Assembly (NCBI RefSeq): GCF_028278985.1
Contig: NZ_JANQTA010000029.1
Location: 1-38,149, forward strand
Direction of reading: 5' to 3'
DNA: 38,149 nucleotides
Source: Candidatus Nitrosopumilus sp.
GTDB lineage: Archaea > Thermoproteota > Nitrososphaeria > Nitrososphaerales > Nitrosopumilaceae
A model generated the notes under the pieces. It was not told the DNA's origin. It worked only from the letters and a program-made list of their open reading frames with translations, and did no database searches. Numbering within the stretch: position 1 is the first letter of the stretch; each line of letters begins with the position of its first letter. Position numbers and translations under genes: made by a program. Positions 1,409 through 4,243 of this stretch are shown here, in pieces.

Positions 1409-2146
1409 TTAATTCATTCGTACAATGTCGATTTTAACCACTGGACCATCCCATCCATGAGCTCTCTGTGATAAATCATCATCTCCAAAGATTCCTGGAT
1501 GTGGAGTGATTATTCCATCTTCGGCAATTGCTGGATTGGTAGCTCCTGTTCCTTTGTCACTAGAACTTACTCCAGATTCAGCAGCACATGGAGGAACCAA
1601 GTCTGCAAAATCTTCAGTATTCATCTCAGTTCTAACATCATATGCTTTGGCATAGACTGTTTTTTCTTTGTAGAATGGAAGCTTTACTGAATCAATTCCA
1701 GCGATTCCGTCATTTGTACATACTAACATGCTTGCAAAGGAGAGATATCTCTTATTTCCATCAGCTGAAACTGTAAAGGTTTCAGAATATTGCAAATCTG
1801 TATCTCCTGGATCATTTGCTGGAACTAAATGTCCCCCTGAACCCTTGACAATATCCATTACTCCTGATTTACCCTCTATTTTTTCAACTAAGAGATTGGA
1901 ATTTCCATTCTCTGCTAATTGTTGCAGCTCTTCAGAAGCTTTCTCTCCAACCGTAAACAAGCTAACATCTTTAGAATGTGTAACTAACAATGGAGGAGTT
2001 ATTGGCTGGCCTGGAGTAATGTTGGTTATGGTTACCTCATACATCTGTGACTTTGCAGCATTAGATTCTGGAATTCCTGCAATTCCTACTGCTAGTATTG
2101 CTACTAGTGCGGTCATTGCAAAAAAACCTGTTTTTTTTGATTTCAT
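1409..2146 (-). CDS. Exported spondin-domain-like protein
   Basis: The product is 245 aa with a signal peptide (residues 1-30, Lys-rich start, hydrophobic core, cleavage near SNA-A). The body follows the spondin N domain plan: YEVTITNITPGQPITPPLLVTHS near residue 36, then a GEKASEELQQLAENG helix, and a FTVSADGNKRYLSFASMLVCTND segment. Such proteins are common in ammonia-oxidising archaea and are extracellular; their ligand is unknown. Two Cys (in LVCTND and PPCAAES) could form a disulfide. The upstream DNA shares a 12-bp exact and roughly 28-bp imperfect element with the DM13 gene promoter at almost the same distance, which suggests common control. Confidence 0.8.
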   Translation of the reverse strand: MKSKKTGFFAMTALVAILAVGIAGIPESNAAKSQMYEVTITNITPGQPITPPLLVTHSKDVSLFTVGEKASEELQQLAENGNSNLLVEKIEGKSGVMDIVKGSGGHLVPANDPGDTDLQYSETFTVSADGNKRYLSFASMLVCTNDGIAGIDSVKLPFYKEKTVYAKAYDVRTEMNTEDFADLVPPCAAESGVSSSDKGTGATNPAIAEDGIITPHPGIFGDDDLSQRAHGWDGPVVKIDIVRMN

Positions 2147-2173
2147 TGAAAATGTTATTCTAAAAAATTATCT

Positions 2174-2205
2174 TAAGGATTTTACCACTTTATACCCCAA
2201 TCTTT
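2174..2205 (-). promoter_or_regulatory. Shared upstream element, copy 1 (spondin gene)
   Basis: On the minus strand this reads AAAGATTGGGGT, one variable base, TAAA, one variable base, TGG, then A-rich sequence. The proximal edge of the exact 12-mer is 48 bp from the spondin start codon. The same pattern lies upstream of the DM13 gene. It could be a regulator site or an unusually conserved promoter; the copy here contains TATAAA, so a core-promoter role is possible. Confidence 0.55.
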
Positions 2206-2211
2206 TTTGAA

Positions 2212-2514
2212 TCATCTTCTTGTAATCCAAACAAGAATTGATAATCCAATTGTTTGAATTACATTGATAGTAAACAAGTAATGTGATACCATATCTGCTG
2301 ACATCATCAAAGCTTTGTCATCCATGTAAAGTGTAGACCAAAACAAAACTATCACAACATTCTGAATCATTAACAATGCTGCAACTAAAACTAATCCTGA
2401 AGTGTAATATGATCTAATTACTCTCATGTTTTGAACATATGTTCCAATTACAACTAGAAGCAATCCTATATTCAAAAATGCAGAAATAACTGCAGCTAAC
2501 ATAAAATCAATCAT
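2212..2514 (-). CDS. Small membrane protein (DUF7521-like)
   Basis: The product is 100 aa and almost wholly hydrophobic. It has three likely membrane segments, near residues 5-26, 38-60 and 77-97, with a short loop rich in Met and Asp between the last two. It lies 26 bp after the winged-helix regulator on the same strand, and a GAGG-like ribosome binding sequence precedes its ATG, so it is probably co-transcribed with that gene. Pairs of a winged-helix regulator with a three-helix membrane protein of this kind are known in archaea, and the membrane partner may sense or transmit a signal; that role is inferred. No catalytic motif is visible. Confidence 0.7.
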   Translation of the reverse strand: MIDFMLAAVISAFLNIGLLLVVIGTYVQNMRVIRSYYTSGLVLVAALLMIQNVVIVLFWSTLYMDDKALMMSADMVSHYLFTINVIQTIGLSILVWITRR

Positions 2515-2540
2515 AACATAATTCCTCTTTGTATGCTAAT

Positions 2541-2930
2541 TTAGATTGTTCCAATTTTTTTCATAATCTCCTCTAACGTATTCTTATTTTCTTTCATTAA
2601 ATCTGATAATTGGTATTCTGCACCATAGTCTTTTTCGGCTTTTTTTACAAGTTCATTTTTTGCTAGTATTTTGATATGATGTGCAACTGTTTTATGGTCT
2701 AGATTTAGGGTTGTGGATATTTTATGTGCATTAAGAGGGGTTTCTTTGATTAAATTGAGGATTTTTGCTCTATTTACACCACCTCTCGTGCCTGCAATTA
2801 TGCTCCATAGAATCATCTTGAATCTGGGGTTGATTGAAGGGCTAGAGCCTTCGTTTCCTGAAAATAAGAAAATTTTTGGAAGAATCTGTGGTAATGAAAA
2901 TGATGGTAATACTATTGTTGCAGTTAACAC
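2541..2930 (-). CDS. Winged helix-turn-helix transcription regulator (ArsR-like)
   Basis: The conserved part starts at MILWSIIAGTRGGVNRAKIL and continues with the helix-turn-helix LNAHKISTTLNLDHKTVAHH, then a wing with EYQLSD. This is an ArsR-type DNA-binding domain without metal-binding cysteines. The frame is open back to an ATG at 3017, but that start lies inside the DM13 gene. A GTG at 2930 has a TATA-like TTTTATATC about 27 bp before it and follows a terminator-like dyad, so I chose it (129 aa). An ATG at 2816, which begins the conserved part, is the other option. It probably controls its neighbours and itself, as inferred from the flanking DNA elements. Confidence 0.8.
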   Translation of the reverse strand: MLTATIVLPSFSLPQILPKIFLFSGNEGSSPSINPRFKMILWSIIAGTRGGVNRAKILNLIKETPLNAHKISTTLNLDHKTVAHHIKILAKNELVKKAEKDYGAEYQLSDLMKENKNTLEEIMKKIGTI

Positions 2931-2970
2931 TGATTGCTCAGGAGATGTATTAGATATAAAAAATTGCTTT

Positions 2971-2990
2971 TGTGATTTTTTCAAATCACA
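2971..2990 (-). terminator. Perfect 8-bp dyad at end of DM13 gene; terminator or operator
   Basis: TGTGATTT and AAATCACA flank a 4-base loop and cover the DM13 stop codon. On the minus strand the dyad is followed by a T-run, as in a terminator. It also sits just upstream of the TATA-like box of the winged-helix regulator, so it could instead be that regulator's own operator. Confidence 0.5.
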
Positions 2991-3579
2991 TTTGTGGTAG
3001 AACTTCTGCACTTCCAAACAACACGCTAAATGCTTTGCACCAAATCAACACTTTGTTGTATTTGGTAAGATCTGTTCCTTCAGGAATATCATAGTTTTGA
3101 TTTCCATTGTTTGCTTTAAGTTCGCCCAGATTAACAAAATCAGATGCATTATCATCTGTTGCTAGGTAAACGAACAAATCTGGTCCATTAGTTGATTTGA
3201 AATTTTCTAATCTCAAAACATTACTACCATCTTCTAGGGGAATTGTATATGCGTCTCCTTGTGCATCATGGATTCCATCACCAACTCCAATGAATGTTCC
3301 TGCATATGTCATAGGGATTGTTTCTTCCATCATCATTTCGTCATCTTTCATCATTTTCTCTTCCATCATCATTTCGTCATCTTTCATCATTTTCTCTTCC
3401 ATCATTGGCTCATCAGATTTTTCCATCATTACACTAGTACTATCTTTGATTGGTTGTGTGATAGCTCCTGTTGGTAATGCCTCATCAACGGATGATTCTG
3501 TAAAATATGGAGATAATGCATAGGCTGCAACTCCTGCAATTGCAATAATTGGGATTATTGCGAATACTGCTTTGTTCAT
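2986..3579 (-). CDS. Exported or membrane-anchored DM13-domain protein with Met-rich repeats
   Basis: The product is 197 aa. An N-terminal hydrophobic segment (about 4-24) acts as signal or anchor. Residues 50-88 are a charged Met-rich linker with the 12-residue unit EEKMMKDDEMMM repeated twice. Residues 92-195 form a DM13 domain, shown by TNGPDLFVYLATD, VNLGELKANNGNQNYDIP and the closing VLIWCKAFSVLFG; the Cys in that last motif is the family's conserved one and has been proposed to take part in redox or metal chemistry. A TATA-like CGATATATAC lies about 26 bp before the ATG. The Met-rich linker might bind copper, but this is only inference from composition. Confidence 0.85.
   Translation of the reverse strand: MNKAVFAIIPIIAIAGVAAYALSPYFTESSVDEALPTGAITQPIKDSTSVMMEKSDEPMMEEKMMKDDEMMMEEKMMKDDEMMMEETIPMTYAGTFIGVGDGIHDAQGDAYTIPLEDGSNVLRLENFKSTNGPDLFVYLATDDNASDFVNLGELKANNGNQNYDIPEGTDLTKYNKVLIWCKAFSVLFGSAEVLPQM
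3325..3405. repeat. 36-bp tandem repeat in DM13 gene
   Basis: Two full 36-bp units begin at 3325 and 3361 and a partial third begins at 3397. The two full units are identical by eye and encode the EEKMMKDDEMMM repeat. The near-perfect DNA identity points to a recent duplication. Confidence 0.8.
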
Positions 3580-3604
3580 GAGAAATCTTTTGTGAATTTT
3601 GTAT

Positions 3605-3637
3605 ATATCGAATTTTCCAGTTTAGACCCCAATCTTT
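3605..3637 (-). promoter_or_regulatory. Shared upstream element, copy 2 (DM13 gene), with TATA box
   Basis: On the minus strand this reads AAAGATTGGGGT, one variable base, TAAA, one variable base, TGG, AAAA. The exact 12-mer ends 47 bp before the DM13 start. A separate TATA-like CGATATATAC lies between it and the gene, so here the element sits where an upstream regulator would bind. Confidence 0.55.
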
Positions 3638-3712: not shown

Positions 3713-4243
3713 ATGGAGCCATTTGACTCATTTCTAATATGGATTTCAGATTTTCTAGGAGATCATCTCTATGAAGGAATCTTCCTTGCAGCCCTTCTTG
3801 AGACTATTGTTCCTCCTATTCCTACTCTTGCCGTTTTTCCTACGGCAGGATTCTTGGCCAGTCAACAAGGAATTTCCTTGATGGGTATTATTCCCATGAT
3901 TCTTTTAGGTGCCATAGGTGCAACTATTGGTACTTCTGCAATTTACTTGATAGCTCTAAAACTTGGAAGAGCAGTTTTGCTGCGTTATCTGAAATATGTC
4001 AAGGTCTCTGAATCAAAATTAGAACGTGTAGAGATTTGGTTTGAAAAATATGGTGACAAGGCAGTATTTCTAGGAAGAATGGTTCCAGTAATGCGAGAAA
4101 TGATTTCTGTTCCAGCCGGATTACTCAAAATGAGAATTCCAAAATTTGTTTTGTATACATTTTGTGGTTCTTTAATTTGGGCAACAGGAACAATTCTTGC
4201 CGGTTATTATTTTGGCGAAGCTATTGGTCTTACCACTAGTTAA
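3713..4243 (+). CDS. DedA/VTT-family membrane protein
   Basis: The product is 176 aa, slightly short for DedA proteins. The core has the family signs: a Pro-rich re-entrant segment (LLETIVPPIPTLAVFPTAGFLAS), the GAxxGT helix (GAIGATIGTSAIYLIALKLGR), the helix with FEKYGDKAVFLGRMVPVMREMISVPAG, and a final hydrophobic segment. DedA proteins act in lipid flipping and envelope homeostasis in bacteria; the archaeal role is not established. It is transcribed away from the DM13 gene and probably alone. Confidence 0.9.
   Translation: MEPFDSFLIWISDFLGDHLYEGIFLAALLETIVPPIPTLAVFPTAGFLASQQGISLMGIIPMILLGAIGATIGTSAIYLIALKLGRAVLLRYLKYVKVSESKLERVEIWFEKYGDKAVFLGRMVPVMREMISVPAGLLKMRIPKFVLYTFCGSLIWATGTILAGYYFGEAIGLTTS

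Follow-up and report, generated by a model that had tools for sequence, protein, structure and literature searches.

Most ArsR/SmtB proteins are repressors, and in Bacillus subtilis the membrane protein SdpI ties SdpR to the membrane. Among archaeal regulators, TrmBL1 (in its activating position), Ptr2, and TFB-RF1 are activators acting just upstream of the BRE, and ArnR of Sulfolobus is a membrane-bound regulator with membrane helices of its own. To our knowledge, little is known about gene regulation in ammonia-oxidizing archaea, and we know of no established archaeal function for DM13, spondin, CHRD, or DUF7482 proteins. A literature search returned no description of a system combining a regulator, a membrane protein, and an operator as described below, and nothing relevant on DM13, spondin, or CHRD in ammonia-oxidizing archaea. 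Here we describe a locus of Candidatus Nitrosopumilus sp. that contains a candidate switch for proteins outside the cell in these organisms; it lies in the window, i.e., the whole 38,149-nt stretch of DNA that was analyzed.

Gene order and the shared promoter element

The minus strand of the window carries, in order, genes for a DM13 protein, a winged-helix regulator, a 100-aa membrane protein, and a spondin protein. The DM13-domain protein (2986..3579, minus strand; PF10517, 73.3 bits against a Pfam cut-off of 25) and the spondin-domain protein (1409..2146, minus strand; PF06468, 40.5 against a cut-off of 24; NF038123, 143 bits against a cut-off of 40) are both exported. The first-pass annotation had placed an ArsR-like regulator and a small membrane protein between them, and this description held. 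The regulator (2541..3017, minus strand; conserved core by orthologue comparison, 2544-2816), recognized from HTH_5, its orthologues, a SmtB/CzrA-like model, and hydropathy, matched HTH_5/ArsR with 31.4 bits against a Pfam cut-off of 22, placing it in the ArsR/SmtB winged-helix fold; its open reading frame overlaps the 3' end of the DM13 gene, and the choice of start codon is ambiguous. The membrane protein (2212..2514, minus strand) has three predicted helices, no Pfam match above the cut-off, and no NCBIfam match, including to the SdpI family; modeled alone with AlphaFold, it reached modest values (pLDDT, 72; pTM, 0.36).

The regulator was modeled from an alignment with the initial residue of some rows set to Met, and only its core, a winged helix with a pLDDT of about 90, was considered. 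Foldseek gave CzrA and SmtB as the closest folds (probability, 1.00), and a profile comparison matched the regulator to ArsR/SmtB metalloregulators (E = 1.5e-4). It scored below the NCBIfam cut-offs both for HTH_metalloreg (31 bits; cut-off, 55) and for its best match, NF033789 (SdpR autorepressor; 35 bits; cut-off, 100).

The 12-mer AAAGATTGGGGT occurs at 2194-2205 and 3626-3637, both on the minus strand, ending 47 nt before the spondin ATG and 46 nt before the DM13 ATG. These distances equal, within counting convention, the 48 and 47 bp given in the first-pass annotation, and its estimate of 24 matches over about 28 bp was reproduced exactly, the best ungapped identity of the two upstream regions being 24/28 bp. 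A pattern search of the whole 1,690,937-bp genome found two exact copies, both at this locus, against about 0.2 expected by arithmetic from base composition, and among 5000 shuffles, 5 gave the two 120-bp upstream regions a common stretch of at least 12 bp. When up to two mismatches were allowed, the window alone contained 4 matches against 5.0 expected, no excess over chance; the argument rests on the two exact matches, on where they lie, and on comparison with other genomes, not on mismatch-tolerant counts.

The conserved element is longer than the 12-mer (AAAGATTGGGGTnnAAAnTGGnnAA) and lies immediately upstream of the TATA box. Sequence comparison delimits a predicted DM13 operator, AAAGATTGGGGTCTAAACTGGAAAAT (3612..3637, minus strand), with the 18-bp core GATTGGGGTCTAAACTGG (3617-3634), and a predicted spondin operator, AAAGATTGGGGTATAAAGTGGTAAAA (2180..2205, minus strand), with the 18-bp core GATTGGGGTATAAAGTGG (2185-2202); in sites of this window type, the second half-site has shrunk to TGG. 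The DM13 TATA box, TATATA (3602..3607, minus strand), was read from the sequence, recurs with equal spacing in relatives, and lies at about -28 to -23 relative to the ATG, a distance implying that the start is probably leaderless. The spondin TATA-like stretch, TTAAGATAA (2168..2176, minus strand), is weak, and its usual form in relatives is TTAAGGTGA. Given its constant spacing upstream of the BRE/TATA and a TATA-ATG distance like that of a leaderless start, the element is presumably a DNA site rather than leader RNA.

Two further features of the locus concern the DM13 gene. Window positions 3320-3425 encode tandem Met/Asp/Glu-rich repeats (MMEEKMMKDDE; MMEET and MMDDT in relatives), which are possibly metal-binding and whose number in DM13 proteins differs strongly from genome to genome. 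A divergent VTT/DedA gene (3713-4243) has its intergenic region in common with DM13; it is probably not a target of the regulator, because it keeps the same place in G080, whose DM13 gene has no neighboring regulator.

Conservation of the element and its association with the regulator

Of 151 genomes of the Nitrosopumilaceae, 6 yielded a spondin protein match and 71 a DM13 match. A regulator orthologue (at least 56% identity) occurred in 13 genomes, every time adjoining DM13 and the membrane gene, and a 14th genome (G095) carries a truncated regulator copy adjoining a DUF7482-like gene; most of the named relatives in which the membrane gene occurs are Nitrosopumilus and Nitrosarchaeum metagenome-assembled genomes. 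Conservation before orthologous genes in relatives, on which the first-pass annotation had staked its proposal, was indeed present: the element precedes all 12 spondin genes found, as well as the DM13 genes that adjoin the regulator. Its full form in regulator-bearing genomes is AAAGATTGGGG(T/C)nnAAAnTGGnnAA, and of the 33 distinct sites collected from relatives, 32 have an ATG 36 to 38 bp downstream. Across these 33 sites the core is fixed and the flanks are variable, the fixity of the core being read in the light of the fact that the sites were gathered by means of the core pattern itself. In G119, spondin lies 340 kb away from DM13 and the regulator and retains its site; thus, shared ancestry of neighboring DNA is not the reason for its conservation. 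Further sites lie upstream of a DsbD/CcdA-like gene oriented divergently from DM13 (G130, G125, and G212) and upstream of DUF7482-type exported-protein genes (G071, G095, and G143).

Some members of these loci are unusual. The DM13 promoter of G119 (L093:2700-2730) contains a perfect palindrome, CCCCAATCTAAAAGATTGGGG, formed by an extra inverted half-site. Broken members occur at four loci (L096, L187, L111, and L044): spondin is split or shortened in L096 and L187, G143 has a membrane gene interrupted by an internal TAG, and a stop codon lies within the DM13 match of G098.

The exact 18-bp pattern was present in 16 of the 151 genomes, with one to three copies in each, namely in 13 of the 14 genomes with the regulator versus 3 of the 137 without it (Fisher p about 4e-15, the genomes not being independent), and reversed-pattern controls gave zero matches in the same 151 genomes. 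The exception among the regulator genomes, G124, has a form of the element that is 1 bp shorter (L091), and in the three genomes bearing the pattern without the regulator the promoter arrangement was not seen. DM13 genes without a neighboring regulator carry a TTGGA variant at equal distance, and another protein may read it there. A search for this variant gave promoter-positioned matches almost only at DM13 genes; the loose pattern used (TTKGRY...) was partly mis-specified and mostly matched coding DNA, and only promoter-positioned matches were counted. One-mismatch matches to AATTGGGGTAGAATTTGG, single in several genomes, were set aside as probably coding. In G015 (L170-L176), a repeat around TTTGGCAAAATTTGGnCAAT is present seven times; it is not promoter-like and looks like a separate repeated element.

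The element was not found before many unrelated genes in any one genome, which settles the concern, raised at the outset, that it might be general at unrelated promoters: there are two exact copies in this genome and few per relative. These sequence comparisons give good support to the proposal that one regulator serves two exported proteins, since the element follows the regulator gene; the proposal needs to be widened for some relatives, in which the predicted regulon is larger.

Tandem 11-bp repeats around the gene pair in other families

The pair of regulator and membrane genes is conserved across families. In the Nitrososphaeraceae (family inferred), the membrane protein has 49 to 58% identity and a winged-helix gene usually adjoins it, with exported CHRD, DUF7482, Met-rich, and "FGPGGIFPF" proteins as neighbors. 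The N-terminal extension of the regulator is hydrophobic in both families (best 17-residue mean hydropathy, 1.3 to 1.9), a feature lacking from a widespread paralogue (best mean, 0.2). In the Nitrososphaeraceae and a third family, exported-protein promoters near the pair contain two to four 11-bp repeats (TTTGGGTnTAA). Those of the Nitrososphaeraceae end 8 to 10 bp upstream of the TATA, e.g., AAATTGGGGTATAATTTAGGTGTAATTTGGGAATAATATGGGAATTTGCTTAAATAA; in the third family (G205, L192), a DUF7482-type gene adjoining the pair has GATTTGGCTAAGATTTGGATAAGAGTTGGAAAAACC. One neighboring promoter, in L121, is without repeats.

A genome-wide exact search for two repeats in 13 Nitrososphaeraceae genomes gave 16 matches versus one for the reversed-pattern control. 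Fifteen of the 16 lay no more than about 11 kb from the HTH/membrane pair, most of them 35 to 42 bp before exported-protein genes; those of G217 and G218, directly before the membrane gene, may derive from coding sequence. Searching 300 genomes of the class again recovered CHRD and DsbD/CcdA promoters (G251 and G325), in addition to chance or coding matches. DsbD/CcdA promoters with the element thus occur in both families; in G251, G325, and G193, the CcdA locus has the element, and no pair lies within the DNA examined around it. In 20 promoters, self-match at lag 11 was 0.44 versus 0.28 expected, with a second rise at 22 (z = 8.7, a descriptive value, the promoters having been picked and trimmed by hand); among window-type sites alone, lag 11 was not the top lag.

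A widespread paralogous pair of winged-helix and membrane genes adjoins radical-SAM-like and RNase H-like genes in the family genomes examined (L182-L185 and L196). Its membrane protein belongs to no Pfam family, and at these loci the DNA upstream of the pair beside the radical-SAM gene contains no 11-bp repeats.

Proposed regulation and comparison with described systems

Genome comparison establishes the element, its spacing and position, the gene set, and the co-occurrence with the regulator. From these, we consider it probable that the element serves as operator for a small regulon and is read by the adjacent ArsR-fold protein under the control of the membrane protein. The winged-helix protein would bind two to four TTGGG/TTGGA half-sites, and the 11-bp spacing, one helical turn, would place its subunits next to one another along the same face of the helix, immediately upstream of the BRE/TATA. 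There it would most likely recruit or stabilize TFB/TBP and activate leaderless transcription of exported-protein genes. DM13 would be transcribed together with the downstream regulator and membrane protein, and spondin from its own promoter; in relatives, the predicted targets extend to DsbD/CcdA, DUF7482, CHRD, and Met-rich proteins. For its part, the 100-aa membrane protein, which had been proposed as a sensor, may hold or release the regulator in response to some condition at the membrane or beyond it, as the analogy to SdpI suggests. Our guess is that the signal is a metal or the thiol-redox state, because DsbD/CcdA and Met-rich exported proteins are among the predicted targets.

The regulator might instead repress from the same operator and be released by a signal via the membrane protein, as SdpR is via SdpI. 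The ArsR fold, closest to that of the SmtB and CzrA repressors, favors this, as do the below-cut-off match to the SdpR autorepressor family and the position of the regulator gene downstream of DM13, by which it would be autoregulated. We nevertheless regard repression as unlikely and infer activation, because the sites stand in fixed phase next to TFB, upstream of the BRE/TATA and not across the start, and the spondin TATA boxes are poor, which fits activator-dependent promoters. It is quite improbable that an unlinked transcription factor common to DM13 promoters reads the element, with the neighboring regulator as a passenger: a related element does stand at equal position before DM13 genes without the regulator, but the GATTGGGG form tracks the regulator across genera, and in other families it is again the regulator-membrane pair around which the repeats are concentrated. 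That the two neighboring promoters arose by recent duplication, or share a general core element, with no dedicated regulator involved, would account for their 24/28 identity but is barely credible and was rejected: exact 12-mers number only two genome-wide, genomes with the pattern have one to three copies of it, and across four genera the core persists upstream of genes that are not homologous, amid variable flanking bases.

A system of this kind would give DM13, spondin, CHRD, and DUF7482 proteins a regulatory context, with regulator, operator, and target set predictable from sequence, and the link of exported proteins to DsbD/CcdA suggests a role in handling redox or copper on the outer side of the membrane. 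The evidence is evenly balanced as to whether this is an undescribed system of ammonia-oxidizing archaea, spanning at least three families, in which a winged-helix protein sits along 11-bp repeats by the BRE, answers to an unnamed membrane-protein family, and regulates extracytoplasmic redox/metal targets (DM13, spondin, CHRD, DUF7482, and DsbD/CcdA).

Compared with CzrA and SmtB, the regulator has the same winged-helix fold, whereas it scores below the metalloregulator cut-off (31 versus 55), is associated with direct repeats instead of their usual inverted repeat, and has a hydrophobic N-terminal extension. The site immediately upstream of the BRE/TATA resembles those of TrmBL1, Ptr2, and TFB-RF1, although these belong to other protein families and their sites are non-repeat or palindromic. 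ArnR, too, is an HTH regulator of archaea that is linked to the membrane (a weak NCBIfam match), but the membrane part here is mainly a separate gene. Unlike in SdpR/SdpI, the regulator is far below the SdpR cut-off (35 versus 100), its membrane partner is without an SdpI match, and the predicted targets encode exported proteins and have 11-bp direct repeats at archaeal promoters; with respect to an SdpR/SdpI-like mechanism, in which the membrane protein would bind the regulator upon a signal, what the analysis observed is the conserved gene pair. In common with SdpR/SdpI, a small ArsR-fold regulator gene stands directly before the gene for a small multi-pass membrane protein.
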